From the NCBI RefSeq assembly GCF_001562055.1, contig NZ_LLWE01000025.1, positions 310,001-374,000 on the forward strand: a DNA stretch of 64,000 nucleotides, in the 5' to 3' direction. Position numbers and translations under genes: made by a program. Origin of the DNA: Polycladidibacter stylochi. GTDB lineage: Bacteria > Pseudomonadota > Alphaproteobacteria > Rhizobiales > Stappiaceae. The notes below the pieces were generated by a model that saw only the letters and a program-made list of their open reading frames with translations, was not told where the DNA came from and did no database searches. This document shows, in pieces, positions 3,654 to 45,756 of this stretch; position 1 is the stretch's first letter; each line of letters starts with the position of its first letter.

Positions 3654-3657
3654 TTTT

Positions 3658-30630: not shown

Positions 30631-31443
30631 ATGCTAAATATAAAGTCTATAACTACTTCTGTTTTACTATCAACTACAATCTCAGCCAGTGCTTTAGCAG
30701 GTAGCACAATCACTGACGGTTCAATTTTAGTTGGTACCGATTTAAGTTACCCACCATACAACTATATTGATGAGAATGGCGCTCCAGCTGGTTTCGATGT
30801 TGAGCTGATGACCGCATTAGCTAAGAGAACAGAATTAAATATAACTTTCCTTGATACAAAATTTGAGAACCTCATTTTGGGTGTCAATGGTCAACAATTT
30901 GATGTGATTGCTTCCACTCTCTATGTTAAACCTGAGCGTGCCAAGAAAATTGATTACGTTCCATATATGAAGACTGGCGTTTCAATAGCAGTAGCTTCTA
31001 GTAGCGGTAAATCATTTGCTACATTAAATGATCTATGTGGCCAAGTGGTAGGCTCCATTAAAGGTGCAGCTTGGTTAGAAGCATTTGAGGAAATGAATAC
31101 TGGTATTTGCGCCAAAAACCCAATAGACAGCCGCGAGTTTCCAACCTCCCCTGAAGCCACCCAAGCACTACTATCGGGCGGAGTTGATGCACAAGTAGAA
31201 GACTCGGCTGTACTCGGCGCTGCAGTCGATAAACTGAATGGACGTTTGGTAATCTCATCCAAAGAGCAATTCTATCCAGTAATCGTAGGCTTGGGTGTTA
31301 AAAAGAATAATGAGGCCTTGGTAAACGACTTACGCGTTGCACTGAAGGGCCTAGAGGAGGATGGAACATACACTGATCTTCTCAAAAAATACAATCTGGC
31401 GAAGCCAAGTGAGGAAGAGTTCCTCAAAGCAGTAGGTCAGTAG
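30631..31443 (+). CDS. Polar amino-acid type ABC transporter substrate-binding protein (SBP family 3)
   Basis: About 270 residues. The start is the ATG at 30631, preceded by gagggga; the open frame reaches 30514 but without a ribosome site. A signal peptide (MLNIKSITTSVLLSTTISASALA) is followed by a family 3 periplasmic receptor: VGTDLSYPPYNYIDENGAPAGFDVELM, GVNGQQFDVIASTLYVKPERAKKIDYV and ATQALLSGGVDAQVEDSAV. It resembles receptors for polar amino acids and ectoine (EhuB type). The ligand is probably related to the EctC-like enzyme's substrate, which is inference from operon order. Confidence 0.88.
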   Translation: MLNIKSITTSVLLSTTISASALAGSTITDGSILVGTDLSYPPYNYIDENGAPAGFDVELMTALAKRTELNITFLDTKFENLILGVNGQQFDVIASTLYVKPERAKKIDYVPYMKTGVSIAVASSSGKSFATLNDLCGQVVGSIKGAAWLEAFEEMNTGICAKNPIDSREFPTSPEATQALLSGGVDAQVEDSAVLGAAVDKLNGRLVISSKEQFYPVIVGLGVKKNNEALVNDLRVALKGLEEDGTYTDLLKKYNLAKPSEEEFLKAVGQ

Positions 31444-31468
31444 TTTGTACCCATAACTACATATTTAG

Positions 31469-31498
31469 GCGACGCACTATATTGGTGTGTCGCTTTTT
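31469..31498 (+). terminator. Intra-operon terminator between binding protein and permease
   Basis: gcgacgca (31469-31476) pairs with tgtgtcgc (31486-31493) with one G-T wobble and is followed by five T. It lies 25 bases after the binding-protein stop and probably lets only part of the transcripts reach the permease-ATPase gene. Confidence 0.72.
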
Positions 31499-31516
31499 CT
31501 TTCGGAGGAGAACACG

Positions 31517-31660
31517 ATGCAATTCGACTGGAACTATCTGTTCAGTCTAGCCAGTTTCAAAGACTTTTGGACAGCAAGTCTGTTGGTAGCTTGGCTTAGC
31601 ATCCTGACATGGACAATTGGCGTAGTTACGGGTTTTTTTCGTTGCGTTAGCTCGTACTAA
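31517..31660 (+). pseudogene. N-terminal fragment of the ABC permease, cut off by a frameshift
   Basis: From the ATG at 31517 (preceded by ggaggag) the frame reads MQFDWNYLFSLASFKDFWTA, a normal start of a His/Glu/Gln/Arg-type permease, but stops at 31660 after 47 codons. The cause is a run of seven T (31633-31639). With six T the frame continues as GFFVALARTNGPFWLRQLAG straight into the open frame that follows. So this is the first part of the permease-ATPase gene, shifted by one base. The lesion may be a true mutation, slippage-prone coding or a sequencing error. Confidence 0.8.
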
Positions 31661-31682
31661 CGGGCCATTCTGGCTACGCCAG

Positions 31683-33020
31683 TTGGCTGGCACCTACATT
31701 TGGTTTTTCAGAAGCTTGCCGCTTCTTGTTCTACTAATTTTTGTGTACAATTTGCCACAATTGATGCCTGGCTTGCGCCCAATTCTATCTAACCCTTTTT
31801 GGGCTGGTTTGATTGCATTGGTCATTAGCGAAACAGCATACATTGCGGAAATCCATCGCGGTGGACTTTTATCAATTGATAATGGTCAACATGAAGCAGC
31901 CCATGCTCTAGGAATTCGCTCCTTTGGGAAATACAGGCAGATTATTGTACCACAAGCATTTCGTGTGGCTTTGCCAACCTTGGGCAACCAATTCATAACC
32001 ATTGTAAAGTTGACTTCATTGGTTTCCGTTATTTCACTCTCTGAAATACTATTGGTTGGTCAACGCCTTTATACTAGAAACTTTCTAGTCATAGAAACTT
32101 TAGTAGCCGTATCTTTGTACTATGTAATGATAGTAACAGTATTTACATGGGCAGCTAGTTGGCTAGAACGTCGTATGGATGTGACACGTAGAAAGACATC
32201 TGAACGTGAAGTACCAGTTTCCACTGAGAAAAAAGAGATTGTAAGATCAGCTCGAAAAATCGGTGAAGAAATTGTCGTTGATATGAAAAAGGTACGAAAG
32301 GCTTTCGGTAAAAAAGTTGTACTCAACGACATCTCACTTGAAGTTCGATCTGGTGAAGTGGTAAGCGTTATTGGCCCATCTGGTTCAGGTAAAACGACAC
32401 TAATCCGTACAATCAATGCACTACAAGATATAGATGCAGGCACTATACGCTTCCATGGTGAGGATTGGATTGATGGAAATGGGCGCTACCAGTTAGCAAA
32501 AACTTTTCATGACGATGTGGTGCACTTAGGAATGGTGTTCCAATCATTCAACCTATTCCCCCATAAAACAGTTCTGGAGAACATTATGATGGCACCTCGC
32601 TATCATAAAATGGGAAGTAATGCAGAACTGAAAGAAAAAGCAGAAGGCTATCTTCATAAGGTAGGTATGGCCGCTCACGCAGATAAGTATCCGCACCAGC
32701 TTTCTGGGGGACAAAAGCAGCGTGTCGCTATATCCCGCGCACTAGCAATGGAACCACGGGCCATTTTGTTTGACGAGCCGACATCAGCACTTGATCCTGA
32801 ACTTGTAGCAGAAGTTCTTCGAGTAATTGAAATGCTCGCTTCAGAAGGGATGACAATGATTATTGTGACCCACGAAATGCGTTTTGCAACACGCATAAGC
32901 GATCGTATCATCATGATGGAAGATGGCAATATGGTTGCTAATATAAAATCCCAAGAGCTTGCTACTGCTCCTGAAGGCGAGAGAGTCAGGCAGTTTATGG
33001 CTCAATCTGAACACGGCTAG
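31683..33020 (+). CDS. Permease-ATPase fusion of a polar amino-acid ABC transporter (5' end in another frame)
   Basis: A 445-codon frame. Residues 1-165 are the rest of a HisM/GlnP-type permease: YIWFFRSLPLLVLLIFVYNLP, ISETAYIAEIHRGGLLSIDNGQHEAAHALG (EAA loop) and LVSVISLSEILLVGQRL. After a ~35-residue charged linker an ABC ATPase follows from about residue 200: Walker A GPSGSGKTTLIR, Q-loop MVFQSFNLFPH, signature LSGGQKQRVAISRALAMEP and Walker B AILFDEPTSALDPEL. Fusion of permease and ATPase in one chain makes the transporter a two-gene system with the upstream receptor. The true gene would start at 31517 if the T7 run were six. The TTG at 31683 lacks a ribosome site. Confidence 0.85.
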   Translation: MAGTYIWFFRSLPLLVLLIFVYNLPQLMPGLRPILSNPFWAGLIALVISETAYIAEIHRGGLLSIDNGQHEAAHALGIRSFGKYRQIIVPQAFRVALPTLGNQFITIVKLTSLVSVISLSEILLVGQRLYTRNFLVIETLVAVSLYYVMIVTVFTWAASWLERRMDVTRRKTSEREVPVSTEKKEIVRSARKIGEEIVVDMKKVRKAFGKKVVLNDISLEVRSGEVVSVIGPSGSGKTTLIRTINALQDIDAGTIRFHGEDWIDGNGRYQLAKTFHDDVVHLGMVFQSFNLFPHKTVLENIMMAPRYHKMGSNAELKEKAEGYLHKVGMAAHADKYPHQLSGGQKQRVAISRALAMEPRAILFDEPTSALDPELVAEVLRVIEMLASEGMTMIIVTHEMRFATRISDRIIMMEDGNMVANIKSQELATAPEGERVRQFMAQSEHG

Positions 33021-33151: not shown

Positions 33152-34105
33152 TTAGCTGCTCTCCCTATGCAGCTTTAACGTGGCACGGGCAGTTGCCTCA
33201 TCCACGATTAAATCAGTTATGTATCCTGTGAGCAGCAAGCCTCGTAAAGCCTGCGCTTTATCAACGCCGTCAACAATAACGATGACCCGCTTCGTCTTGG
33301 CAATCAACTCCAGTGGAATTCGAACAACAATATCTGTTTCACTTTCAATAATCCGTCCAGATATATCAAAAAAGTAGGAGGCAAACACACCTACAGCTTT
33401 TCCTGTTCGAAGCTTATTTCCAAATCGAGCTGCAGTCGCCTGATCTGGTATGACAGGGTAGGTGTTAATACCCAAAACAATGGTATCGAGCTGCGACCAC
33501 AAATTAAAAATACTCTTAAAGTCGTGAGTATCTTCAAAAAGCTCCTTATCACTCTGTGAGTTTGGAAAAGCCGGCGCATGTAAATACTGCGGTGTAAAAG
33601 CAATTTTTTCAGAAAATAGTCGCGTTAATTCATTCGCCTGCATAGACTTAATTGGGAATGGCGCACTACCAATAATTGGGCAGACTTTGTGTTCAAGCGA
33701 AATGTCCCTATCAGAATCGCTCAGCTTTTCTATTAGCTCACCAATAGTTTCGCCCCATCCCAACCCTATGTTTTGCATTTGATTGCTAAGGCTATCAATG
33801 TAGCTAGCCGCCTGAGATATGAGAAGGTGATGCGTTAAGTTAGCTTCCTTAGCGTTTGTTGGCACGATTAAACCGGTACTGACACCAAACTTGTCAGAAA
33901 TTTCAGCCATTAAATCGTCATTACTGCCGATAGGGGAAACGACCTCAATTCGCACAATACCTTGCTTCTTGGCGTCAGCGAGAATTTTGCTCACAGCCGG
34001 TCGTGAAATTCCGACCATCTTGGCAATATCTGCCTGCGTCAACTCCTTCTCGTAATACATACGGCAGATTTCTACCATTCTTAATGTATCTTGGTTCACT
34101 TTCAT
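33152..34105 (-). CDS. SorC/DeoR-type sugar-binding regulator (LsrR-like)
   Basis: About 317 residues from the ATG at 34105 (MKVNQDTLRMVEICRMYYE); the frame also opens with a GTG at 34153, which looks too far upstream. The helix-turn-helix ELTQADIAKMVGISRPAVSKILADAKKQGIVRIEVV is followed by a SorC sugar-phosphate-binding domain (FGVSTGLIVP, NIGLGWGETIGELIE, DTIVLGINTYPVIPDQATAARFGN, RGLLLTGYITDLIVDEATA). SorC/LsrR proteins bind phosphorylated sugars or phospho-AI-2 and are released from DNA. It sits behind a terminator downstream of the Lsr-like cluster and probably represses that cluster through the palindromes near 43.2-43.4 kb. Confidence 0.88.
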   Translation of the reverse strand: MKVNQDTLRMVEICRMYYEKELTQADIAKMVGISRPAVSKILADAKKQGIVRIEVVSPIGSNDDLMAEISDKFGVSTGLIVPTNAKEANLTHHLLISQAASYIDSLSNQMQNIGLGWGETIGELIEKLSDSDRDISLEHKVCPIIGSAPFPIKSMQANELTRLFSEKIAFTPQYLHAPAFPNSQSDKELFEDTHDFKSIFNLWSQLDTIVLGINTYPVIPDQATAARFGNKLRTGKAVGVFASYFFDISGRIIESETDIVVRIPLELIAKTKRVIVIVDGVDKAQALRGLLLTGYITDLIVDEATARATLKLHRESS

Positions 34106-34359
34106 TGGAGCTGTACCTGTAAGAAATTTGGGGCCTTTTGCGGGGCTTATCACATGGACTTATTGTTTTGGTCCAATAGACAAAACTAACTCTTCGCACA
34201 TCTGCGTAAAATATTAAATCCTGATATTCTTTATCAACACGACTCTCAGTGATCTGAATAAACCTTGCAATCAATTAGGTTAGACATTTACAAAGTTCAT
34301 ATTTATCAAAGTAATCGCTTCTAGATTCCATACTTTTGCTATTCACAATGATATGCCAA

Positions 34360-34384
34360 TCAGGCCTGTAAAAAACAGGCCTGA
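34360..34384 (-). terminator. Terminator of the Lsr-like catabolic operon
   Basis: tcaggcctgt (34360-34369) and acaggcctga (34375-34384) form a perfect 10-bp stem with a five-base loop, 16 bases beyond the sugar isomerase stop. It separates the operon from the regulator gene downstream. Confidence 0.65.
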
Positions 34385-34400
34385 AGTGAGCACGATTAAA

Positions 34401-34994
34401 TCAATCAAGGAAGAACTTGCCATTCGGATGGCTGAAGCACAAGCCTTCATGATCATGATGGGTAGCATACTCGGTCACAATTGCACCTTGCGGCCCTGCC
34501 CGCATCCAATGGCGTTCACCAGGAGCAGAGAGCATTGCTACATTGCCCGGCAAAACTTCTTCACGTTTAAAAGCGGTCGTACATTCAGTATGCGAGCTAG
34601 GAATATCCTGTGCAACGCCCTCTGTTGGCTGACCTTCTGCATAGGTGTATATACTACCGTGACGCACGTGCCAAGCTTCGCATTTTTCGTTCGTTGCATC
34701 GGTTGCAACATGCCAATGCTCTGGTATTGCTTGGTTAGGAAGCAAGAAGATTTCATGACCACTAATGTTGTATTTTGCATCAGTAATCCAGAAAATACCG
34801 GCCATGCCTGACTCGGCAAAGTTACCAATATTGAAATCCTTCACCCAAAAATCATCGGTGTCGAAACGTGGTGGAATGGGATAGTTATAGAAGCGCATCA
34901 TTTCAAGGTAGGCTTCACGCGCTACATCCATTTTAAATGTGCCATCAGCATCATAGAAGTGCTCGTTTGGATAAACCTTAAGTTCTGCAGTCAT
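34401..34994 (-). CDS. Cupin sugar isomerase, D-lyxose/D-mannose isomerase-like (YdaE type)
   Basis: A 197-residue single-domain cupin. It follows the pattern of Bacillus YdaE-type D-lyxose/D-mannose isomerases: EIFLLPNQAIPEHWHV with the two metal His, the metal Glu in KCEAWHVRHGSIYTYAEG, then SAPGERHWMRAGPQGAIVTEYATHHD with the last His. Such enzymes interconvert an aldose and its 2-ketose with Mn. It is the last gene of the operon that also holds the transporter, a DhaK/DhaL kinase and an LsrF-like aldolase, so it would make the ketose for phosphorylation. The true substrate is not known. Confidence 0.75.
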   Translation of the reverse strand: MTAELKVYPNEHFYDADGTFKMDVAREAYLEMMRFYNYPIPPRFDTDDFWVKDFNIGNFAESGMAGIFWITDAKYNISGHEIFLLPNQAIPEHWHVATDATNEKCEAWHVRHGSIYTYAEGQPTEGVAQDIPSSHTECTTAFKREEVLPGNVAMLSAPGERHWMRAGPQGAIVTEYATHHDHEGLCFSHPNGKFFLD

Positions 34995-35056
34995 TTTATT
35001 CTCCTAAGTCTATAGAGAGGTGTTCATTATTCTTTGAATTTTAGTAGAGAACTTAC

Positions 35057-36052
35057 TTAGCGGCTTGAGGCAGCGTAAGGCTTCAAGGTGCGTGTAATGT
35101 AGCTTTTGATCTTTTCTCGCTCATTGATAGCCATGGCAACCACAAGGATTAAGCCTTTGATGATTGTTTGCCAAAAGATCAAAACATTCATCATGCTCAA
35201 ACCATTACCGATCACAGTAATAATCATTGCAGCAACAAGCGTACCGACGATTGTCCCACGACCACCGGTCAAGGCAGTACCACCCAACATAATAGAAACG
35301 ATAACATCCATATAGAACATTTCGTAGACACGTGGGTCACCTGCACCAAGGCGTGAAGCTGTCATAATACCTGCAAAAGAAGCCATAAGAGCAACAACAA
35401 CAAATAGTACAGTCACAATCTTGTTTACATTGATACCAGAAAGTAAAGCTGCATTTTCATTACTGCCGATAGACATTGCATACTTACCAAGTATCGTTTT
35501 ATTCGCAACGATCCAGAAGAATACACAACCAATAACAGCAAGAATGATGGGAAGAGGAATGCCCAATACAACACCGTTCATGAGTGTTCCAAATGCCTCA
35601 GGCAAATCACCACGCACGGACTGACCATTACATATTACCAGCGCGAAACCTTTACCCATGAACATCATGCCAAGTGTCGCAATGAATGGCGAAATATCCC
35701 ATTTGGTAACCAGTATGCTGTTCAGGATACCAAAGCATGCACCAGCCGCTAGCGTCAAAACAAACGCAATAGTCAGGGGCACACCTGAAAGTGCCAGCAT
35801 GGTGTAGAGCACACCGCTGAATGCCAGATTGGAACCGGCAGACAGATCGAAGTTACCAGTCATCATCAATATGGTTGCTGCACTAGCAGCAATTAATAAT
35901 GATGATGATTGCTTAAGCATATTAAAGTAGTTACCTACCTCAAAGAAGTGCTCGGAAGAAAATGCAAAGTATGCATTCAACGCGATTAGCACAAGAAATA
36001 GGATGAATGTTTGTGTTCCAGCAATAGATTTGAATTTTTCGCTAAGAGTCAT
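35057..36052 (-). CDS. CUT2-type sugar ABC transporter permease (second permease, LsrD/RbsC family)
   Basis: A 331-residue membrane protein of the RbsC/LsrC/LsrD family. Typical segments are ILMMTGNFDLSAGSNLAFSGVL near residue 60, LVTKWDISPFIATLGMMFMGKGFALVI near 115, LSGINVNKIVTVLFVVVALMASFAGIMTASRLGAGDPRV near 205 and VIVSIMLGGTALTGGRGTIVGTLVAAMI near 255. Its start overlaps the ATPase stop by four bases (ATGA). Two different permeases in one operon, as here, is the arrangement of the Lsr AI-2 transporter rather than of ribose transporters. Confidence 0.92.
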   Translation of the reverse strand: MTLSEKFKSIAGTQTFILFLVLIALNAYFAFSSEHFFEVGNYFNMLKQSSSLLIAASAATILMMTGNFDLSAGSNLAFSGVLYTMLALSGVPLTIAFVLTLAAGACFGILNSILVTKWDISPFIATLGMMFMGKGFALVICNGQSVRGDLPEAFGTLMNGVVLGIPLPIILAVIGCVFFWIVANKTILGKYAMSIGSNENAALLSGINVNKIVTVLFVVVALMASFAGIMTASRLGAGDPRVYEMFYMDVIVSIMLGGTALTGGRGTIVGTLVAAMIITVIGNGLSMMNVLIFWQTIIKGLILVVAMAINEREKIKSYITRTLKPYAASSR

Positions 36053-37542
36053 TGCCCTAAATCCTTTCCTGCAACAACATCCATAATGAAGTCTGTATCG
36101 ACATCATCACCATTTTGGATAATACAGCGTGCTTCGCCGTCATACATGAGCACAATACGGTCGCACAGCTGCAGTACTTCTTGTAACTCAGAGGAGAAGA
36201 CGATTATGCTCTTGCCATCGTTAGCAAGATCGCGAACAATTTCGTGTATTTCTTGCTTGCCGCCAATATCAACACCACGGCTAGGCTCATCCATGAGGAT
36301 GATGTCGCTGTCGCGGTTCAAGCATTTACCAATAACCACTTTTTGCTGGTTACCACCGCTTAGCAAGCCCACTTTGTGCTCGCGGTTACTTGAAGCAATT
36401 GACATGGCATCGCGATAATGGTCCGCAAGTTTGTTTTCTGCCGCCCGGCTGATCAAACCGCCTTTCAAGACAGTACCCATTCGCATCAAAGGAACGTTCT
36501 GACGAATGCCTAGTAAGCCAAAGATACCCTCTTGCCGACGCTCTTCTGGCACCAAGGCAATGCTGGCTTTAAGTGCACGGCGTACACTATTGAGCCAGAC
36601 TCGCTTGCCTTTAACCCGAATCTCGCCTTCACTGTCATGCCCGTAAAGAATTTCAGATACTTCGGTTTTACCTGCACCAACCAAGCCGTAAAAACCAAGA
36701 ATTTCACCCTTATGAAGATCAAAGCTTACATTCTTGAGTTTACGAGTTGATACATTTTTAACTTCAAGCAGTTTTTCATCACTTCGCTTCTTACTTGGCA
36801 CGTATTCGTTAACAACGATCTTGCCAAGCATCATGCGAACAAGGTCGGCGCGGTCCATGCCCTCAAGCGAACGTGTGCCCACCATTTCCCCGTCCCTAAA
36901 GACACTTACGTAATCACCAATTTCAAAAATCTCACTTAGTTTGTGAGAAATGAAGATCATGGTGACACCGCTTGCCTTAAGCCTTGCCACGGTTTGAAAC
37001 AGCTTTCGAGTCTCACCAAGGCTGAGAGCAGCTGTCGGCTCATCCATAACAAGCACAGAACAGTCCGAACACAACGCCTTGGTAATTTCTACAAGCTGCT
37101 TTTGTGCAACCCCTAAGCTGCCCACAGCATCGTCCAGCGAAATACTCTCATCGAACGTTGCGAGTATTTCTTTGGCTCTCTTAAGCATCTCACTCTTTTG
37201 AGGGAAGCCGTATTTATGCTCTTCTTGGCCAAGCGTAATATTTTCGGCAATAGTAAGCTCATCCACAACGTTCAATTCTTGGTAAAGAACTGAAATGCCG
37301 TCGGCCATCGCCTCCTTAACCCGCGTTGGAGCGAAAGGTTTGCCGTTAAGAGTGATTTCACCAGAACTTCTCTTAATCACCCCGGTAAGGATTTTAATGA
37401 ATGTGGACTTACCAGCGCCGTTTTCACCGACAATACAGTGTACTGAGTTGCGTTTAATATCAAAACTAACCGACTTAAGTGCAGTCACTCCAGGGAAAGT
37501 TTTACCAACATCTCGAATTTCAATAATATTGCTCTGATCCAT
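36049..37542 (-). CDS. CUT2-type sugar ABC transporter ATP-binding protein (LsrA/RbsA family)
   Basis: A 497-residue duplicated ATPase. The first half has Walker A GENGAGKSTFIKIL near residue 37, LGVAQKQLVEITKAL and Walker B VLVMDEPTAALS. The second half has a degenerate Walker A (GLVGAGKTEVSEIL near 285) and the signature LLSGGNQQKVVIGKCLN with ILMDEPSRGVDIGGK, as usual for RbsA-like proteins. It lies between the two permease genes, two bases after one and overlapping the other, so all three are made together. Confidence 0.93.
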   Translation of the reverse strand: MDQSNIIEIRDVGKTFPGVTALKSVSFDIKRNSVHCIVGENGAGKSTFIKILTGVIKRSSGEITLNGKPFAPTRVKEAMADGISVLYQELNVVDELTIAENITLGQEEHKYGFPQKSEMLKRAKEILATFDESISLDDAVGSLGVAQKQLVEITKALCSDCSVLVMDEPTAALSLGETRKLFQTVARLKASGVTMIFISHKLSEIFEIGDYVSVFRDGEMVGTRSLEGMDRADLVRMMLGKIVVNEYVPSKKRSDEKLLEVKNVSTRKLKNVSFDLHKGEILGFYGLVGAGKTEVSEILYGHDSEGEIRVKGKRVWLNSVRRALKASIALVPEERRQEGIFGLLGIRQNVPLMRMGTVLKGGLISRAAENKLADHYRDAMSIASSNREHKVGLLSGGNQQKVVIGKCLNRDSDIILMDEPSRGVDIGGKQEIHEIVRDLANDGKSIIVFSSELQEVLQLCDRIVLMYDGEARCIIQNGDDVDTDFIMDVVAGKDLGQ

Positions 37543-37544
37543 GA

Positions 37545-38513
37545 CTACCCCCGACCCATATTGGTGAAACGATGATTGAGCATGAGTGAACCAATGAGAA
37601 TGACACCATAAGCAATGCTTTGATAATAGAATGGGATACCCAGGAGGTTCAGACCGTTACTTGAAAAGCCAACAACAAGGGCCCCAAGCAGCATACCGAC
37701 AGTAGAGCCTACGCCACCCATCATGCTGGTACCGCCCAAGATGATCGCAACAATAACGTCAAACTCCAAACCGTTACCAACACTTGGTGATGCCAGACCA
37801 ACACGTGATGTTTGCAGCACACCACTCAAACCAGCGAACAAAGCAACCATCATATATAGGAAGCCGATGATACCAACTGTGTTGATGCCGGATAATTTTG
37901 CAGCCTTGATGTTGGTACCAACTGCGTAGCTCAAGCGGCCCAGAGCTGTCTTCTTCTCGACAAAAATAAAGACCAACAGAGAGAGCACCATCAGAACAAT
38001 TGCCAGCGGGAAAATTCCAAAAACAAGTTCACGACCGAAATCGACAAACTCCATTGGCAAGCCGGTCATAATGTTCGCTCCGCCGTCCCAGCGTGCAATC
38101 AAGAAAGCGAAACCACGAGCAATAAAGAGAACGCCAACAGTAGCAATAACAGGGTTAATTCCTAATACCGCCACCGTAAGTGCATTCACTGCACCCCAGC
38201 ACATAGCAACAACACAAGTAATTAAAATCGATAGCTCAATAGGGACACCGTGTTTGCACATGTAAGCATGAAGAATTCCTGAGAGCGCCAATACACTACC
38301 AACTGACATGTCAAAATGACCAGTAATCATAAGCATATTTGCAGCGGAGGCGATGATGACGATTACCGCAACCTTAAGGAATACATTGGTAAAATTTGTC
38401 ACGGTCAGGAAAGTTGAAGAAGCGAAGGACAACCCAACAATGATCATTAAAAGCGTACCTAATAGAACAAGCTTTTGGGTTTCCGTCCGCAGTAAGTGCT
38501 GGATCCTATCCAC
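37545..38513 (-). CDS. CUT2-type sugar ABC transporter permease (first permease, LsrC/RbsC family)
   Basis: A 322-residue membrane protein of the RbsC/LsrC family with MITGHFDMSVGSVLALSGIL near residue 65, AVLGINPVIATVGVLFIARGFAFLI near 115 and FDVIVAIILGGTSMMGGVGSTVGMLLGALVVG near 255. It follows the binding-protein gene after a hairpin and precedes the ATPase gene by two bases. Confidence 0.92.
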   Translation of the reverse strand: MDRIQHLLRTETQKLVLLGTLLMIIVGLSFASSTFLTVTNFTNVFLKVAVIVIIASAANMLMITGHFDMSVGSVLALSGILHAYMCKHGVPIELSILITCVVAMCWGAVNALTVAVLGINPVIATVGVLFIARGFAFLIARWDGGANIMTGLPMEFVDFGRELVFGIFPLAIVLMVLSLLVFIFVEKKTALGRLSYAVGTNIKAAKLSGINTVGIIGFLYMMVALFAGLSGVLQTSRVGLASPSVGNGLEFDVIVAIILGGTSMMGGVGSTVGMLLGALVVGFSSNGLNLLGIPFYYQSIAYGVILIGSLMLNHRFTNMGRG

Positions 38514-38655
38514 GTTTAACCTCCAAGCATTTCATTTCATACGAGCTGTTATTATTATTAAGCTGCATAGGAGAAAGTAAATGCAATGTAATAATGGCAC
38601 ATTTCTAATTATTTTGCGCTATGCCATTAGTTATAGTGAAGTATTATGAGTTTAC

Positions 38656-38682
38656 TGGGTGCCGTTTATACTACGGCACCCA
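38656..38682 (-). terminator. Hairpin after the Lsr-like binding-protein gene
   Basis: tgggtgccg (38656-38664) and cggcaccca (38674-38682) form a perfect 9-bp stem with a nine-base loop, seven bases after the binding-protein stop on the minus strand. No T-run follows. It probably stabilises or attenuates the message before the permease genes. Confidence 0.6.
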
Positions 38683-38688
38683 TATTGT

Positions 38689-39720
38689 TTAGCGTTGCTT
38701 AGCAACCATAGCTTTCAAGTCTTTATCGAAGTTAAAGTTGACTTCAAGGAAGGCTTGAGCTTCACGAATTGAGTTATTCCAGTAATCGAAAGTTGGGCTT
38801 TCAGTATCAACCTGGAACCACTCATCCGTTGGAATATCGCCTTTGATCATACCCATCAGAGTATCAACCTCGGCAATACCATTGTCGCGAACTTGACCGT
38901 GGCTCAATTTAAATGAGCAGTTCGGATTAAAGATTTTGACCATTGCGTTTTCACCGGCATCAACACCGGCAATGATTTCTGTCAATGGCACACCATTATC
39001 CATGCGACCACGACCCAGTTGCTCAGTTGCCGCCAGCGCACCAAGAGCCATATCGTCGTTTGCACCAAAAATGATGTTTACATCTGGATTAGCCTGCAAA
39101 ATATCAAGCGTTACATCCATAGAAGTAATGGTTGAGCCACCACCATTTTGAACGGTAACCAATTCGGCATCCGCAGAAACTGACTGCACACCTCTGAAGA
39201 ATGGATCGGTACGAAGAGAAGCAATTTGCTCAAAGCCGCCAAAATTCAAAATTGCAACACGCGGTTTTTTATCTGGATGTGCTTTCAGCCATTGTGTCGC
39301 GGCCACTTCCCCCATTCGGAATGAGGAAATGTCTTCACGTGGTTGCACGTGTGGAGTCGACTTAGACATTGGAAACATCAAAGTCGTTACAATAGGAATG
39401 CCGGCTTTTTTAGCCATAGTAACGGCTGTTTCACTCATCGCAATATCAGGTGAGTGCAAAGCAATGCCGTCAACCTTTTGAGCAATCAAATTCTCAACAG
39501 CACTTAAAGCAGATTCACTACTGGATTGACCATCGACAACAATTGTCTTGGCACCATATTCTTTCTTTGCGTAACCTTCAAAGTAACGCACTACAGACTG
39601 ATGATAAGCATGCTCAAGTGTGAATGGGACCTTGCCCAAAACAATTTCACCATCTGCAGCACTTACTGGTGCTGTTGAAAGTGTTACAGCAGCAGCCATA
39701 GCTAATAGTGTTTTCTTCAT
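38689..39720 (-). CDS. CUT2-type sugar ABC transporter substrate-binding protein
   Basis: About 343 residues. The start is the ATG at 39720, preceded by ggaggaaag; the GTG at 39735 lies within that site. A signal peptide (MKKTLLAMAAAVTLSTAPVSAA) precedes a peripla_BP_4 fold: GYAKKEYGAKTIVVDGQSSSESALSAVENLIAQKVDGIALH, VNIIFGANDDMALGALAATEQLG and LTEIIAGVDAGENAMVKIF. It resembles receptors for ribose-like sugars and AI-2 (LsrB family in the broad sense) but is not obviously LsrB. Ligand unknown; presumably the compound processed by the isomerase, kinase and aldolase of this operon. Confidence 0.9.
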   Translation of the reverse strand: MKKTLLAMAAAVTLSTAPVSAADGEIVLGKVPFTLEHAYHQSVVRYFEGYAKKEYGAKTIVVDGQSSSESALSAVENLIAQKVDGIALHSPDIAMSETAVTMAKKAGIPIVTTLMFPMSKSTPHVQPREDISSFRMGEVAATQWLKAHPDKKPRVAILNFGGFEQIASLRTDPFFRGVQSVSADAELVTVQNGGGSTITSMDVTLDILQANPDVNIIFGANDDMALGALAATEQLGRGRMDNGVPLTEIIAGVDAGENAMVKIFNPNCSFKLSHGQVRDNGIAEVDTLMGMIKGDIPTDEWFQVDTESPTFDYWNNSIREAQAFLEVNFNFDKDLKAMVAKQR

Positions 39721-39974
39721 AGTTCTTTCCTCCACATACGCCTCCCAGGCAATATATTTTGCAAATGAGCTCGCAATAACAATTTATCGCCAGCTAAACT
39801 ACCAAGCACCACAGTATTACTGAAGTACTTAACTTTGACACAAGCAATGTTCGATTAAATATTTCTAAATTACATTATATTTAGAAACTAAAATTACTCT
39901 ACTTAGTGGCAATACATTTTGGTGTTACTGTCAGCAACAACGGGAAAACTGACAGTAACTCCTATTAAAATCGA

Positions 39975-40853
39975 CTATTTTTGCGATTTTAATGTGTTAT
40001 AAAGCTCGAAAGCTTGTTCTGGCTTCAGGCCATCGTGAACAACACCAGATACGGCCTGGATCATCGCGGCAGGCGCATCAGATTGGAACACGTTACGGCC
40101 CATATCGACACCGGCAGCGCCTTGGTCAATTGCTTTATAGCAAAGCTCAAGCGCTTCCATCTCTGGTAGTTTTTTACCACCAGCAATAACAATCGGCACA
40201 GGACAAGATGCAGTCACCTTCTCAAAGCCATCACAGAAGTATGTCTTAACAATATGTGCGCCATTCTCTGCACAAATTCTTGAAGCAAGACCAAAGTACT
40301 TTGAGTCACGAGCCATCTGCTTACCAACAGCAGTTACACCCATCACAGGCACACCGTATTTATTGCCAGTATCTGCAGCTCGGTAAAGGTTAGCAACTGT
40401 TTTTGCCTCTGTTGCTTCGTCACCAATTCCCACCATAACTGCAACAGCAGAAGCATTAATGCGTACAGCATCTTCAATATCAATGATCACATTATGATTG
40501 AGTTCAGTTAAAATTGAAGAGCCCGCATCTGCACGCAAACAAACTGGTTTTTTGAGTGTTGGTGGAATAGATGAGCGAATGACGCCGCGCGCACCCATGA
40601 GGCAGTCTGCATACTGTGCAATAGGCACAATGTTCAAATCAATACGCTCTAGACCTGATGTTGGCCCCATAATAAAGCCATGATCGAAAGCAAGCATAAC
40701 TGTACGACCTGTTTCAGGTCTAAAAATGCGGCTCAAGCGGTCTTTCATACCCCAATCGAGATTATTACTACCTTTTAGGTAAAAGCCGTCATTTTCTGCT
40801 GCTTGCCCAAGACCGAAGTCCTTGCCATCACGAATATCGTCAAGATCTGCCAT
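39975..40853 (-). CDS. LsrF-like class I aldolase/thiolase
   Basis: About 292 residues from the ATG at 40853 (aaggat upstream). It closely follows E. coli LsrF along its length: [60 protein letters not shown] and [38 protein letters not shown]. The Schiff-base lysine is at residue 203 (HIVKTYF), the same position as in LsrF. LsrF moves an acetyl group from phosphorylated AI-2 breakdown product to CoA; related enzymes of this fold are DHAP-forming aldolases. Here it stands with a DhaK/DhaL kinase instead of LsrK and no LsrG, so an aldolase role on a ketose-1-phosphate is an alternative. Confidence 0.87.
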
Positions 40854-40931
40854 TGCAGGTATCCTTATCTTAAAACATTGGGATTGTTTGAAAGTGAGAT
40901 CAGCGAAGTAAAGGGAACTGACCAACTAAAA

Positions 40932-41561
40932 TTACATAACGCTTGCAAAGCCTTGGAAAATAAAGCTAATGCTTTTCGCGCCTGGGTCGTAATGGCCGAT
41001 AGCCCGTTCACCCATCAGTCTGGCACGACCAAACTTAGCTACATAGTCCTTGGTTTTCTCCGCACCTTTAGCCGCCTCTTCCGCAGCAAGTTTGAATGCA
41101 GCAGGAAAATCACCTGATTTGCGTAGTTCAGCTGCAAGTGCTTCAGTTGCAGGATGCATGGCATCCATCATTGTCTTATTTCCAAGATCCGCTTTACTTG
41201 TCTTCTTAAAGCCGTTCAAACCAGCTTCAAATAAAGCAGCTGTCTCTTCTGCACTTAGCTCATCACTTTTTGCAGCTGTTGAAAGACCAGTGAAATAAGA
41301 ACCAAGTAATGGGCTTGTTGAACCACCATCACACATCATGATTTTCATGGCTGTATTAGTAAGTAGCTCTGCAAATGGCTTACTGGAATTTTCTTCTACA
41401 GCTTCTTTCGCAGCTTTCATTGTTCTATGAATAGTAACACCATGGTCACCATCACCAGTTGCTTCATCCAACTTAGAAAGAAATGGGTGCTGTTCTTCGA
41501 TTACCGCTTCTGCAGCTTTAATCATTTCAATAAATTGGGATTTAGTATAATTCCCGGACAT
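40932..41561 (-). CDS. dhaL: Dihydroxyacetone kinase subunit DhaL-like (ATP-binding)
   Basis: About 209 residues from the ATG at 41561, with aaggaag upstream. The DhaL nucleotide site is visible: Mg ligands in EATGDGDHGVTIHRTM near residue 35 and MCDGGSTSPLLGSYF near 75, then KTMMDAMHPATEAL near 115 and ARLMGERAIGHYDPGA near the end. DhaL supplies the phosphoryl group to the substrate bound by DhaK. No DhaM PTS protein is encoded nearby, so it may use ATP directly, as the split kinases for erythrulose do in other bacteria. It is followed after 78 bases by the LsrF-like gene. Confidence 0.9.
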   Translation of the reverse strand: MSGNYTKSQFIEMIKAAEAVIEEQHPFLSKLDEATGDGDHGVTIHRTMKAAKEAVEENSSKPFAELLTNTAMKIMMCDGGSTSPLLGSYFTGLSTAAKSDELSAEETAALFEAGLNGFKKTSKADLGNKTMMDAMHPATEALAAELRKSGDFPAAFKLAAEEAAKGAEKTKDYVAKFGRARLMGERAIGHYDPGAKSISFIFQGFASVM

Positions 41562-41655
41562 GACTGCTTTCTTCCTTAGCACATTGAACTTAAAGCGCAC
41601 GTCGTCATTGCGCTCCGATCACATCGTTGCGAATGTCAAGTTGCTATATTTTTTC

Positions 41656-41664
41656 GGGGGGGGG
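41656..41664. repeat. Nine-G homopolymer tract between dhaK and dhaL
   Basis: Nine consecutive G, preceded by ttttttc, in the 149-base gap between the dhaK stop and the dhaL start. Such tracts are prone to slippage and to sequencing error. It is not inside a coding frame. Confidence 0.8.
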
Positions 41665-41710
41665 CCGATCAGGCTACTTTGAAATCACCCGACCGACCAT
41701 TTATTTTTTA

Positions 41711-42703
41711 CTATCGAACGCGATAGTAAGGTGTGTCACAAGGCTCACCCCATAGCTGTTTCAATTCCTCGTCCAGCTTACAAACGATCATTTGATAACC
41801 ACCTGCTTCTTGAACAGTTAAGAATTCTCCAGCTTCACCTTGAATTACTTTAATACCAGCTTGCTCAAAGTAGTTCTTAGCGTCTTTAAAGGTAATCAAA
41901 AGCTCCATTATAGTCGTTTTACCGGAACCATTGATAAGCAATACAACTTCATCACCAGACTTAAGCTGCAATTTTTCAACAACGCGCTTCGCCAGAATTT
42001 CAGCAGTTTCCTTTGCTGAACTCATTGGCATACGAACGCCGCCACCTTCGCCATGCTGACCAGCGCAAATTTCCATTTCATCTGCACCAATCTCACCACA
42101 GTCACCGCCAGTTGTCGGATGAGTTGCAATTTCAGAGAGCACTGCAATAGCAGCCGTATTCTCGTTTGTTTTTTCAGCTATGCGGTGAACTTCATCAAGA
42201 TTTTTACCTTGCTCAGCTGCCGCACCAGCCATTTTGTAAACGACAAAACAACCACCTAGGCCGCGCCCTTCCTCTTCATCAGTAGGGCGAATTTCTTCAT
42301 TGGTCAGCACTTCTTTAACAACGATACCTTCAGCGCTAGCGATTTGTTTCGCCATTTCAGCACTCATTACATCGCCAGCGTGGTTAAGTGTAACCAACAA
42401 AATACCTGCATCACGCTTTAAAAGGCGCATCGCTTCCACAACAGTGGGGGGACCAGGTGCAGCAAAAACATCACCAACGACCGAAGTATCAAGCATTCCT
42501 TTGCCAACCCAACCTTGGAGAGCAGGCTCATGACCAGAACCACCCAAAGTTAAAACAGCAACTTTATCGGCGCTTTTTTCTTCTACGCGGCACAGCAATT
42601 TTTCTGAAACAAGCTTAACTTTATCAGGATACGCAGCAACCATACCCTCAAGCATTTCAGTAGTTAATGTTTCAGGATTATTGATAAATTTCTTCATAGC
42701 CAT
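41711..42703 (-). CDS. dhaK: Dihydroxyacetone kinase subunit DhaK-like (substrate-binding)
   Basis: A 330-residue DAK1 domain protein. The substrate site GGSGHEP is near residue 55, GDVFAAP near 78, the loop with NHAGDVMSAEMA near 108, and the His that binds the ketose covalently is His217 in CAGQHGEGGVR, matching His218 of E. coli DhaK. It is separate from the DhaL half and lacks any PTS partner. Such DhaK/DhaL pairs phosphorylate dihydroxyacetone or four-carbon ketoses such as erythrulose; the substrate in this operon is unknown. Preferred start is the ATG at 42703 (caagg upstream). Confidence 0.9.
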   Translation of the reverse strand: MAMKKFINNPETLTTEMLEGMVAAYPDKVKLVSEKLLCRVEEKSADKVAVLTLGGSGHEPALQGWVGKGMLDTSVVGDVFAAPGPPTVVEAMRLLKRDAGILLVTLNHAGDVMSAEMAKQIASAEGIVVKEVLTNEEIRPTDEEEGRGLGGCFVVYKMAGAAAEQGKNLDEVHRIAEKTNENTAAIAVLSEIATHPTTGGDCGEIGADEMEICAGQHGEGGGVRMPMSSAKETAEILAKRVVEKLQLKSGDEVVLLINGSGKTTIMELLITFKDAKNYFEQAGIKVIQGEAGEFLTVQEAGGYQMIVCKLDEELKQLWGEPCDTPYYRVR

Positions 42704-42760
42704 GATCTTATACCTTGGGAGATAAATGTAATCTCCCGATTTTTCTATTTAGTCTTGGGT

Positions 42761-43081
42761 TTACGCGGAAATAGACATAAGTTCGACAGGTTGTCCGTCT
42801 TCAATAATGAATCCAACACGAACCCCTGGCCCACCATCAAAAGGCTCCATTAGGCACTCTTTTCCTTCCATAGCTGCTTCCACATCAGCAACTACGTAAG
42901 CAATATGCGCTTCTTTTTTTAGCAACTCTGGCATTGGGCTATCAGCTTCAAAACGTAGCCACTCAATATTTGCCCCACATGCACTAGGGTCACTCACGAA
43001 CGTCTTAATATCCGCCATGTAATTTTCTTCAGCACGGACCAAGTCGGTCGGAATCCCAATGTGATGAAACTTTCTTTCCAT
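42761..43081 (-). CDS. VOC/glyoxalase-fold small protein
   Basis: About 106 residues from the ATG at 43081, preceded by the very strong site ggaaggagg. The half-glyoxalase layout is visible: MERKFHHIGIPT with the first metal His, HIAYVVADVEAAMEG with the second His, and QPVELMSI with the C-terminal Glu. One copy equals one VOC half, so it would act as a homodimer, as lyases, epimerases or isomerases do. It is the first gene of the operon leading to DhaK, DhaL and LsrF-like protein, occupying the place where one would expect a modifying enzyme such as LsrG, but it is a different fold. Reaction unknown. Confidence 0.78.
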   Translation of the reverse strand: MERKFHHIGIPTDLVRAEENYMADIKTFVSDPSACGANIEWLRFEADSPMPELLKKEAHIAYVVADVEAAMEGKECLMEPFDGGPGVRVGFIIEDGQPVELMSISA

Positions 43082-43230
43082 AATTCCTCCTTCCAAGACC
43101 ACAATTAAAAGTAGTATTGCTTAGTATAATTAACTGGTAAGCCAGCTAATCTCTCCCAGTCTTGAATTTTGCGAGTTATCTTGTTCACGACTCATATATA
43201 ACAATCGTCAAAACATCGGTCAACATATAT

Positions 43231-43244
43231 CTGACATATGTCAG
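43231..43244. promoter_or_regulatory. Operator-like palindrome 1 (SorC candidate)
   Basis: ctgacatatgtcag is a perfect 14-bp palindrome about 150 bases upstream of the VOC gene start. It shares the TGACATATG core with the second palindrome. Binding by the SorC-type regulator of the cluster is inference. Confidence 0.6.
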
Positions 43245-43334
43245 GAACTTTGTCAGGTGATTCCGTAAGGGATGGTGATATTTCTGTAGTAAATTCAATA
43301 ATATAAAGGAAAGTGCGACAAAATTGCTTTTACT

Positions 43335-43352
43335 CATATGTCATGACATATG
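43335..43352. promoter_or_regulatory. Operator-like palindrome 2 (SorC candidate)
   Basis: catatgtcatgacatatg is a perfect 18-bp palindrome, 90 bases further upstream, built from the same TGACATATG half arranged inside-out relative to the first site. Two such sites about nine helical turns apart would suit a tetrameric SorC/LsrR protein that loops DNA. Confidence 0.6.
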
Positions 43353-43746
43353 AATTTCAACCATGATCATTTGATCTAACAAATGTTCAATGCTTCAGAA
43401 TCAAACTGGGAACTGTACTATCATCACTTGAAAACGGCATGTCTCATGAGCGAACAATAAGAATAATCTCCCTATAAAATTAAATTAATTAAACCAAAAG
43501 TAGTAATGCTTAAGCCAATTGATGCCCTACCCTCTATTACAAATCAATTGATTAACTCCAGCTCCCACCTTGGAAGGTACAATCACAAAACTGACTATGA
43601 GATAAAGTAGAACCAAGGTCGCATCATTTCATTACAAAGTTCTATGATCAATTTATAGTCGTTTCGCCGTAAGCTGCTTTCTTTCTGTGAGAAGGAGCGG
43701 CTATCAAGTCGCCAAACGTATTTGCGTAAGTATCAATGAAATATCT

Positions 43747-43794: not shown

Positions 43795-44724
43795 TCATCC
43801 AAGTAACTTATGCACCTCTTCAGCGTACGGTGCAGCAGGGGCCGCGCCGTGTTTGGTTGTGGCCAAAGCACCACAAGCGGCAGCATAACGCACCGCCTCG
43901 GCAAAACTCTCGCTATTAATAGCTTTCGCGCAATCCAGAGAATGGGCAAGGCCAGCGTTAAAGCAGTCCCCTGCCGCAACACTATCAATTGCCTCCACCT
44001 TAAACGGTTTGACAAAACCTTGCGTGCCATAACCACTATAAAAAACGCCATGAGCCCCCAGTTTAATGATGGCAGCTTTTACGCCTTTATCATGCAGAGC
44101 ATTGGCTGCCTTTTCGGCTTCCAAAGCATTGGTGGGCAAGATACCAGTAAGGCTGTAGGTTTCACTCTCATTCGGGGTGATGATATCAATCATGCCCAAC
44201 AGGCTATCTGGTAGTCCCTCTTTTGGGGCGGGGGCCGGGTCAAATATTACGGTTGCGCCGTTGTTATGCGCAAGTCTTGCCGCCCCTTCACAAACAGCCA
44301 TTGGGATTTCCAATTGCAATAGCAATATATCCGCAGCTTGCAGTGGCTCTAAAGCCCGCTGGATGTCACTTTCGTCAAGTGCCATGTTGGCACCACCTAT
44401 CACAGTAATGGCGTTTTCTGCATTGGCATCAACGCCAATCACCGCGATCCCGGTAGCTGTTTTTTCATCAATCTGCACATATTGCCGTGAAACACCAAAC
44501 GAGGCCAGCTGTGTTAAGGCTTCCTGGCCAAAGCCATCTTGCCCGACACGCCCAATAAAATGTGTTGTGCTGCCTAAGCGAGAAGCTGCAACGGCCTGAT
44601 TACAACCTTTGCCTCCAAGGAATGTCGCATAACTGCTACCATGCAGGGTTTCGCCCGCTTTGGGCAAGCGCGGCGAACGCGTGACAATATCTAAATTTAT
44701 CGAGCCAACTACTGCAATGGTCAT
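43795..44724 (-). CDS. rbsK: Ribokinase
   Basis: A 309-residue PfkB family kinase that phosphorylates ribose to ribose-5-phosphate in the cytoplasm. The N-terminal signature VVGSINLDIVTRSPRLPKAGETLHGSSYATFLGGKGCNQAVAAS-type block (residues 5-48), the middle FDPAPAPKEGLPDSL near 150 and the C-terminal anion hole and catalytic Asp in AIDSVAAGDCFNAGLAH near 250 are all present. It is the last gene of the rbs operon, nine bases after rbsR. Confidence 0.94.
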   Translation of the reverse strand: MTIAVVGSINLDIVTRSPRLPKAGETLHGSSYATFLGGKGCNQAVAASRLGSTTHFIGRVGQDGFGQEALTQLASFGVSRQYVQIDEKTATGIAVIGVDANAENAITVIGGANMALDESDIQRALEPLQAADILLLQLEIPMAVCEGAARLAHNNGATVIFDPAPAPKEGLPDSLLGMIDIITPNESETYSLTGILPTNALEAEKAANALHDKGVKAAIIKLGAHGVFYSGYGTQGFVKPFKVEAIDSVAAGDCFNAGLAHSLDCAKAINSESFAEAVRYAAACGALATTKHGAAPAAPYAEEVHKLLG

Positions 44725-44733
44725 GGGGTCTTC

Positions 44734-45738
44734 CTAGAGTTTGACAGATTGACGAATAACAAGCTCGGGAACCAGCTTGATGATTGGAGGCATTTCTTGT
44801 TTATTATCTAGTTGATTTATCAGGGTTTGTGCAGCGCTCATGCCTAAATCAAAGCTGGGCTGGCGAATAGTCGTGAGCAGCGGGCTCATATAGCTGGCAT
44901 ATTCAATATCATCATAACCGATAACAGAAATGTCTTTGGGTATCTCGAGCCCTGCTTCGTTAATGGCACGGTATGCACCAATTGCCATAAGATCGTTAAA
45001 AGCAAAAACGGCTTGCGGATGATGTGGAGGTGCGAAGCGCAATAGTATGGCTTGCATAGCACGATAGCCACCAGCAACACTGAGTGTCTCGCTTGCGTAT
45101 AGGTTAGGATCAATTTCTTGTCCGGCCGTAGTCATGGCTTCACGGTAACCACGATATCGCTCGTTAGATCGAGGGTGCCCTTCTGGCCCTGTTAGGCAAG
45201 CAATTCTTTGTAAGTCTTGTTGAAGTAAAAAATCAACAGCGAGTTTCGCGCCAAGCTCAGAATCATCTTGCAAAGTACAAGCATTTGTTTGAGGAGCGGA
45301 ATCCAAAACCACCTTGGGCAAATTTTTTAGTTGTTGTAAGGCTTCGTTAAAACGTGGCTCACTGCGATTTGTCATCACAACCAATGCATCAATGCGCTTA
45401 CGTACCAATGTGTTGAGGTAGGAGAGTTGCCTCTCGATCTCGTTACCGGAATTACACAGGATCAAACTGTAGTTATGCTGATAACAACCTTCTTCCACAC
45501 CGCGCACGACCTCGGCAAAAAAAGGGTTGGTACTGGAAGAAACCAGCATGCCAATATTATTGCTGCGGTTCATCTTCAGAGCGCGCGCTAAAGTACTTGG
45601 CTGAAAGCCGAGGTGATCGATAGCCTCGCGTACTTTTTGCTTTGTTTCGGGACGAACATAGCGGGTTCTATTAATAACATGTGAGACTGTTGAAGGAGAA
45701 ACACCTGCACGCCTTGCCACATCTTTAATACTAACCAT
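44734..45738 (-). CDS. rbsR: LacI family ribose operon repressor
   Basis: About 334 residues from the ATG at 45738, just after gagga. The LacI helix-turn-helix and hinge are clear (VSIKDVARRAGVSPSTVSHVINRTRYVRPETKQKV, then LARALKMNRSNNIGML), with a ribose-binding-protein-like effector domain behind (FAFNDLMAIGAYRAINEAGLEIPKDISVIGYDD). RbsR releases its operator on binding ribose. It lies between rbsB and rbsK and probably controls the palindrome in front of rbsD. Confidence 0.93.
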   Translation of the reverse strand: MVSIKDVARRAGVSPSTVSHVINRTRYVRPETKQKVREAIDHLGFQPSTLARALKMNRSNNIGMLVSSSTNPFFAEVVRGVEEGCYQHNYSLILCNSGNEIERQLSYLNTLVRKRIDALVVMTNRSEPRFNEALQQLKNLPKVVLDSAPQTNACTLQDDSELGAKLAVDFLLQQDLQRIACLTGPEGHPRSNERYRGYREAMTTAGQEIDPNLYASETLSVAGGYRAMQAILLRFAPPHHPQAVFAFNDLMAIGAYRAINEAGLEIPKDISVIGYDDIEYASYMSPLLTTIRQPSFDLGMSAAQTLINQLDNKQEMPPIIKLVPELVIRQSVKL

Positions 45739-45756
45739 CAGTCCTCGTCCGTTCTT

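Follow-up and report, generated by a model that had tools for sequence, protein, structure and literature searches.

The DNA analysed here is a stretch of 64,000 nucleotides from Polycladidibacter stylochi (NCBI RefSeq assembly GCF_001562055.1, contig NZ_LLWE01000025.1, positions 310,001 to 374,000), hereafter the window, in whose numbering all coordinates are given. An operon on its minus strand, at 33152-43352, was confirmed to encode a SorC-type regulator, a CUT2 ATP-binding cassette (ABC) transporter, a cupin, an LsrF-like enzyme, DhaL, DhaK and a VOC protein. Read from the promoter, the gene order is VOC, DhaK, DhaL, LsrF-like enzyme, binding protein, permease, ATPase, permease, cupin and SorC regulator. 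The five enzymes (VOC, DhaK, DhaL, LsrF and cupin) are referred to below as the module. LsrF is known for the destruction of the signal autoinducer-2 (AI-2), in which it acts by thiolase chemistry; in the present operon its relative appears to belong to an undescribed sugar-breakdown module distinct from AI-2 processing.

The LsrF-like protein (39975..40853), a predicted class I aldolase/thiolase, scored 459.2 bits against an NCBIfam PRK08227 cut-off of 297 bits, measured on a longer frame from 40925, and aligns over 99% of its length with an E. coli LsrF, at 58.9% identity. Residue roles, including those of the Schiff-base and phosphate residues, were taken from the available text of the LsrF structure paper (PMC2728841), in which Asp251 is described as replacing the catalytic Glu/Tyr of other aldolases. 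Ten LsrF residues, among them Lys203, Asp57, His58, Asp251, Arg254 and the phosphate-binding glycines, are kept in all 84 rows of the alignment.

DhaL (40932..41561), the nucleotide-binding kinase subunit, passed the TIGR02365 cut-off (165.1 versus 138.3 bits), and DhaK (41711..42703), the ketone-binding subunit, matched Dak1 at 1.6e-87 and fell below the NCBIfam dhaK1 (TIGR02363) cut-off at 283.7 versus 406.25 bits. Across 44 module DhaK rows, of which L093 repeats the window's own copy, the catalytic His58 is kept in all 43 rows covering it and Asp111 and His217 in all 44. In place of the canonical triose-pocket motifs TSPT, KNYTGD and GIHGEP, every row has AAPG, LNHxGD and GQHGEx, respectively, TSPT and KNYTGD being found in 0/44. 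These two motifs serve in the binding of dihydroxyacetone (DHA). Given this replacement, the operon's kinase is unlikely to be a DHA kinase. The family membership of DhaK and DhaL would suit a standard DHA kinase pair which happens to adjoin an unrelated LsrF gene, yet the gene order is conserved across phyla, the motifs are altered in every module row and the genome already has a separate DhaK with canonical motifs, on contig C5 beside its own DhaL and an EIIA-man-type protein; we give this explanation hardly any credence.

The cupin (34401..34994) matched no Pfam or NCBIfam model, and by phmmer it matched the B. subtilis D-lyxose isomerase 2y0o (E 5.8e-16) as well as 7nzo. Its AlphaFold model has a predicted local distance difference test (pLDDT) score of 95.1, and the first 17 Foldseek matches are all sugar isomerases, led by D-lyxose isomerases from Thermofilum (in structures containing D-fructose and D-mannose) and from B. 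subtilis, after which come E. coli Z5688 and L-ribose isomerases. His93, His95, Glu106, His162, Lys104 and Glu175, among them the metal ligands, show no variation across 59 rows, and the protein models as a D-lyxose/D-mannose isomerase. The small VOC protein (42761..43081, with an ATG start after GGAGG), of putative glyoxalase fold, likewise matched nothing in Pfam or NCBIfam at E 0.001, and phmmer against the PDB gave chance-level matches only. Its model (pLDDT 94.8) has VOC proteins such as methylmalonyl-CoA epimerase as top Foldseek matches, which are weak, one being at E ≤ 0.001. His8, Glu41 and His60 are invariant and Glu101 is nearly so in 47 rows, consistent with a His-Glu-His-Glu metal-ligand pattern that we take to resemble that of nickel glyoxalase I.

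The transporter consists of two CUT2 permeases (35057..36052, BPD_transp_2 1.4e-30; 37545..38513, BPD_transp_2 2.1e-37), one ATPase with two ABC domains (36049..37542, ABC_tran matched in two stretches) and one periplasmic sugar-binding protein (38689..39720, Peripla_BP_4 5e-25 on a longer frame from 39735). The binding protein has 39 PDB relatives at E 0.001, all of them distant, and no ligand could be named for it among these relatives. The regulator (33152..34153) carries a Pfam Sugar-bind domain (1.4e-41) and matches helix-turn-helix models; it scored higher with NCBIfam DeoR (151.9 bits) than with LsrR (75 bits), both under their cut-offs. A 70% identical relative adjoins the module in the sister genome G023.

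Much of the initial annotation is borne out by these results. It had described an LsrF-like protein with Lys203, which is kept together with the nine other residues checked; a two-permease CUT2 transporter, both permeases of which match BPD_transp_2; a split DhaK/DhaL pair without DhaM, which is true of the operon, the C5 pair with its EIIA-man-type protein lying elsewhere; a YdaE-like aldose-ketose isomerase, on which the match to 2y0o, the model and the metal ligands agree; and a VOC protein, the gene for which is present and its model weakly matched to VOC folds. The regulator that it called LsrR/SorC is of SorC type by its Sugar-bind domain and scores closer to the DeoR model than to LsrR, under the cut-off of each.

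Two perfect palindromes based on TGACATATG lie 5' of the VOC gene and are candidate operators, a proximal one at 43231-43244 and a distal one at 43334-43353, with no strand assigned. The TGACATATG 9-mer has four matches in the whole window, all within these two palindromes, against a chance mean of 0.69; none of 100 shuffles reached four. In G023 the 9-mer also occurs twice before the first gene of the operon (L095 6535-6555), and the two operon halves are in reversed order relative to the window. A SorC regulator acting on both palindromes would control the operon. Two minus-strand inverted repeats, each with 10-nt arms of 100% complementarity, were also found: a terminator-like one directly 3' of the cupin gene (34360..34384, spacer 5 nt) and one 3' of the binding-protein gene (38656..38682, spacer 7 nt). 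A separate LacI-type regulator, a ribokinase and an RbsB-like binding protein adjoin the operon at 43795-46686, as read from the open reading frames (ORFs), and at 29965-33020 lie what we take from their sequence pattern to be a small ectoine-synthase-like cupin and then a polar amino-acid-type ABC transporter.

Distribution and lineage of the module

A profile made from a five-row cupin alignment was scanned against genome contigs and gave 249 relatives. The best 80 of the 249 loci were kept and their module genes scored by tblastn; since many contigs end within the cluster, counts refer to genes in view. VOC was seen at 48 of the 80 loci, DhaK and DhaL at 41 each and LsrF at 42; any of DhaK/DhaL/LsrF was present at 45, and all five enzymes at 33. 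In each of these 33 the five genes lie on a single strand, in the order VOC-DhaK-DhaL-LsrF-cupin in 25, with the cupin first in seven and split in one. The five-gene loci belong to Planctomycetota, Hydrogenedentota, Verrucomicrobiota and Bacteroidota. The enzyme set is shared by bacteria of gut and lake that are only distantly related, and plasmid records of Parabacteroides distasonis and Aureibacter carry it too.

None of DhaK/DhaL/LsrF is seen at the remaining 35 loci. When the genomes of 20 of these were searched for LsrF, it was found elsewhere at 52-73% identity in 15, one of which (G844) is that of L070, a locus that has a cupin of its own, and as a 34% match with one stop in another. 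Ten of the 15 LsrF loci were examined, L070 included, and DhaK and DhaL adjoin LsrF in all ten. The genome-neighbourhood comparison proposed in the initial annotation has found LsrF with adjacent DhaK/DhaL recurring across phyla in a conserved order. In the source organism's family the cupin occurs in 2 of 87 genomes, its own included, and a VOC search of 385 genomes of the class gave two matches, its own copy and a 35% match in G245 outside any module.

A tree of the 84 LsrF rows (46 module, 14 lsr-operon), with a midpoint root for drawing only, places the 46 module LsrFs in one group (96/82), apart from 13 of the 14 lsr-operon rows. The fourteenth, L128 of Lacticaseibacillus, forms a long lone branch. 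The group is also separate from the LsrFs found with a class II aldolase, some of which have in addition an FGGY kinase and GlpD. Judged from these sequences, the module is a lineage of its own, not an lsr operon with swapped parts. Within it, the LsrFs of the window, G023 and the alphaproteobacterium Aliiruegeria group with two Planctomycetota rows (100/98), L022 and L033, to which the window's LsrF is closest once G023 and Aliiruegeria are set aside, and then with Parabacteroides (100/95), a placement that suggests that the window's module came by horizontal transfer.

Two other LsrF contexts were observed. LsrF stands with a RhaD-like class II aldolase in L008, L009, L130, L131, L102-L104, L112, L116-L118, L120, L122, L123 and L125, the first four having additionally an FGGY kinase, GlpD and a CUT2 transporter. 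The L128 locus (1-8888) is a lsr-type operon on a plasmid, with LsrK present, a small cupin beside lsrK and a very divergent LsrF; LsrG was not found there by tblastn.

Relation to autoinducer-2 processing

The initial annotation had offered a variant of AI-2 processing as its second reading. Such a route can be written in chemically coherent form: the cupin would isomerise 4,5-dihydroxy-2,3-pentanedione (DPD) to 3,5-dihydroxypentane-2,4-dione, DhaKL would phosphorylate it and LsrF would thiolyse the product to dihydroxyacetone phosphate (DHAP) and acetyl-CoA. All 46 module rows agree with enteric LsrF at the ten catalytic and phosphate-site residues, and one module genome, G832, of four others searched, has a 33% LsrG match. 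Against this, the module LsrFs form their separate group; luxS was not found in any of six module genomes searched (the window's own and five others, a set outside which the L013 genome stands); and LsrG had no match in the window's own genome (G000) or in the sister G023, while the positive control G740 was matched. The operon's binding protein, the only one compared, has no significant similarity to LsrB (best BLASTP E 0.28), and in relatives the module often adjoins cytochrome genes, one with a carbohydrate-binding NPCBM domain. The AI-2 variant is accordingly disfavoured, and we regard it as improbable. The tested signs of AI-2 have fallen away, although the use of foreign AI-2 would still be compatible with the absence of luxS.

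The statement that LsrK and LsrG are missing stands genome-wide for LsrG; for LsrK, looked for in the operon only, it stands for the ten operon genes, among which there is no FGGY kinase. To describe the kinase and cupin as being in place of LsrK/LsrG, as the initial annotation did in its title, is misleading, since the module forms a lineage of its own. That the operon is an altered lsr operon is likewise disfavoured by the sequence comparisons.

Proposed pathway and the cleavage step

The operon is best read as encoding a catabolic pathway devoted to an aldose-type sugar, or a derivative of a sugar, that the cell imports, and not a quorum-signal system. From the gene content, conservation, folds, active-site residues and palindromes described above, we infer its reactions, substrate, products and regulatory contact. 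The ABC transporter would import the sugar and the cupin would isomerise it to a 2-ketose. DhaK would hold the ketone on its catalytic histidine while DhaKL phosphorylates the adjoining hydroxymethyl group, giving a ketose 1-phosphate, which the LsrF-like enzyme, forming a Schiff base on Lys203, would cleave to DHAP and a second fragment. The isomerise-phosphorylate-cleave reading is backed by the conservation of the enzyme set across phyla, and we consider a non-AI-2 pathway of this kind, yielding DHAP, to be probable. The catabolic route first proposed in the initial annotation (import, isomerisation, phosphorylation, cleavage) is upheld in this respect by the anatomy of the operon and the cross-phylum conservation; its aldol last step is given somewhat less weight than thiolysis.

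Thiolysis dependent on coenzyme A (CoA), in which the second fragment would be an acyl-CoA, is the favoured form of cleavage. In the available text of PMC7828210, which cites earlier work, this chemistry is reported for enteric LsrF. As thiolysis needs a 2,4-dicarbonyl 1-phosphate, the pathway would in fact start from a sugar that has been oxidised beforehand. The VOC protein, given its metal-ligand pattern, may be a carbonyl-moving isomerase, as LsrG is for phospho-AI-2. The conservation of Asp251 in all 84 LsrF rows was counted for thiolysis. In L022 and L033, both Planctomycetota, a phosphobutyryltransferase-butyrate kinase (Ptb-Buk) fusion lies upstream of VOC-DhaK-DhaL-LsrF, with one small ACT-like gene between the fusion and the module; the L022 contig ends inside the fusion. 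L006 has a butyrate kinase a few genes from the module. A spirochaete locus (L042, 627-7985) has the cupin with a short-chain dehydrogenase/reductase (SDR), an E1alpha/E1beta/E2/E3 set and a SorC-like regulator, its best LsrF match being one of 34% with one stop, and the E1/E2/E3 set is a possible replacement for DhaKL-LsrF. The Ptb-Buk neighbour and this variant are a hint of an acyl-CoA product.

Flanking genes were surveyed as plus-strand ORFs of at least 90 aa within three ORFs of the module at 35 loci. Of 86 proteins 78 were used, eight Rikenella rows (L062, L067, L083) being omitted because they probably duplicate neighbours of L058, L083 and L087. Of the 105 families matched, 25 were considered, among them every one matched at least twice. 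No aldehyde dehydrogenase family was matched by two or more of the 78 proteins. Together with the Ptb-Buk and E1/E2/E3 links, this makes us lean to thiolysis over retro-aldol cleavage.

Several findings weigh against this preference. The window's operon has no oxidoreductase that could make a dicarbonyl sugar. The Ptb-Buk link is found in just two related loci, with one looser case, among 45 loci of relatives with a module LsrF, and only the kinase half of the fusion is above its NCBIfam cut-off, the transacylase half being below; the L042 subunits are named pyruvate dehydrogenase by NCBIfam and may be just that. Position 61 of the module LsrFs is Ile in 43 of 46, unlike in AI-2 LsrFs, and position 207 is Cys in 45 of 46, as among the 14 lsr rows only in L128. 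LsrF also occurs with class II aldolases, and because Asp251 is equally kept in those LsrFs, the FGGY kinase and GlpD contexts included, the LsrF residues are no proof of thiolysis. A DeoC aldolase gene, which fits plain aldol chemistry, stands beside the cupin in L048, L050, L056 and L061, accompanied by an FGGY kinase in L056 and L061, an SDR in L048, L050 and L061, and DhaKL with LsrF in L061. For the pathway as a whole, the failure to find LsrF in 4 of the 20 searched genomes whose cupin locus shows no DhaK/DhaL/LsrF also counts against it. The thiolytic version as stated is held tentatively, somewhat short of an even prospect.

In a plain retro-aldol route, D-lyxose, D-mannose or a similar aldose would be converted to its ketose and ketose 1-phosphate and then to DHAP and a glycolaldehyde- or glyceraldehyde-type aldehyde, with the VOC protein as an accessory epimerase or mutarotase. 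The cupin's matches to isomerases of D-lyxose, D-mannose/D-fructose and L-ribose fit this route, as do the class I aldolase fold of LsrF with all checked Schiff-base and phosphate residues kept (roles as given in the available text of PMC2728841) and the presence of DeoC and FGGY genes next to the cupin in some relatives. The lack of a common aldehyde dehydrogenase family among the flanking proteins and the links that hint at acyl-CoA speak against it, and it ranks as a possible route behind the thiolytic one. A branched-sugar route, from D-apiose through D-apulose and its 1-phosphate to DHAP and DHA, has the attraction that a branched ketose phosphorylated at C1 would yield two trioses. The DhaK motifs are, however, unlike those of DHA kinases, no transketolase is found among the operon genes, and, of the apiose cluster reported in the available text of PMC13001218 (kinase aplK, transketolases aptA/aptB and apsI), aplK and aptA/aptB are absent from the operon; this route seems to us very improbable. 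Routes for sulfoquinovose and ascorbate were considered and dropped, no route-specific gene being found in the operon.

Where the isomerisation takes place may differ between lineages. Scored by a simple hydrophobicity rule with start codons unchecked, an export signal is present in 56 of 81 relatives' cupins, and 12 of the remaining 25 have twin-arginine leaders by eye; those of P. distasonis and Aureibacter also read as exported. The cupins of the window and its nearest relatives L095, L013, L022 and L033 have no such signal. As most relatives' cupins appear to be exported, isomerisation may precede import and phosphorylation, which suggests that in the exporting lineages the isomerase acts before import and before the kinase.

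The most surprising lead lies outside the window, in genes resembling those of hydrazine synthase (HZS). By tblastn, a relative of a P. distasonis protein with HZS_alpha, FGE and NPCBM domains is found at 34 of the 80 loci, and a relative of a P. distasonis propeller/diheme protein at 22. Two CxxCH motifs are present in 48 of 52 clustered HZS_alpha-type members and in all 25 propeller/diheme members. The alpha-like protein has a strong Pfam match (1.6e-37) and weak PDB matches (0.0042, 0.00054), while the propeller protein of Aureibacter has matches to the beta (E 1e-27) and gamma (1.5e-21) subunits of hydrazine synthase, a surface-layer propeller scoring slightly better than beta at 1.7e-28. 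Such genes, for an alpha-like diheme protein (carrying FGE and NPCBM domains where tested) and a fused beta/gamma-like protein, lie near the module in L005, L006, L015, L016, L032, L036, L054, L058 and others, gut Bacteroidota included. A chorismatase/RidA-like protein, with FkbO/Hyg5-like and L-PSP domains where tested, usually follows the cytochrome gene (L005, 7022-8116, and 20 other loci). Since five planctomycete-type genomes hold 15-26 HZS-like matches each and linkage there is weak evidence, linkage was weighed only in genomes with one or two matches: in G829, G830, G851 and G855 one match is found no more than about 4 kb from the module LsrF, but G838 and G839 carry it on a different contig. 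The window's genome and G023 have no HZS-like matches.

In the available text of PMC10732223, HZS-like genes are proposed to be a broad family acting on alternative substrates. A wider scheme, speculative and rather unlikely as a whole, would be a widespread pathway for oxidised (dicarbonyl) sugars, in which an extracytoplasmic diheme HZS-like complex, an exported cupin, DhaKL, VOC and an LsrF thiolase lead to DHAP and acyl-CoA. In Bacteroidota and planctomycete-type bacteria the complex, with its carbohydrate-binding domains, would make or release the oxidised sugar, and marine bacteria such as the window's owner would have gained the import-and-cleave half only. If this were true, AI-2 processing by LsrF would be a specialised offshoot of an older sugar-thiolysis chemistry.

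Significance and comparison with known systems

In the open-licence papers searched, to the extent of their available text, no description of this enzyme set was found, in agreement with the initial annotation, which knew of no described pathway with this exact set. LsrF, known for signal destruction, probably has a further, distinct function in sugar catabolism, and an automatic 'lsrF' annotation does not necessarily imply AI-2 processing. The results also point to a DhaK subfamily whose members are probably not DHA kinases, and the linkage in Rikenella and Parabacteroides offers a concrete candidate substrate class for the HZS-like enzymes.

Compared with the lsr operon of Enterobacteriaceae, the operon is alike in its LsrF-family enzyme, its CUT2 transporter with two permeases and its SorC-type regulator. 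It differs in having no LsrK, in a genome without LsrG, in a binding protein unlike LsrB and in an LsrF of a separate group; DhaKL, a cupin isomerase and a VOC protein are found instead. With dihydroxyacetone kinases it shares the family, the split subunits and the catalytic His58, Asp111 and His217 (window numbering), and departs from them in the AAPG, LNHxGD and GQHGEx motifs of the module DhaK. The cupin has the fold (TM score 0.75-0.82 on the query) and the HxH...E...H metal site of the YdaE-type D-lyxose/D-mannose isomerases 2y0o and 7nzo, from which it differs in its 23-26% identity, in lacking a Pfam or NCBIfam match and in being mostly exported in relatives by the simple rule.

The kinase of the D-apiose pathway, aplK, belongs to a family different from that of DhaKL. 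That pathway (apsI, aplK, aptA, aptB) has the same isomerise-then-phosphorylate logic, with another kinase and with transketolases, and no LsrF is named in the available text on it (PMC13001218). Finally, the clusters of Shinella and Sagittula that combine LsrF with a class II aldolase, an FGGY kinase and GlpD resemble the present operon in having an LsrF outside an lsr operon together with CUT2 transport, but their kinase and partner enzymes are others and their LsrFs fall outside the module group.

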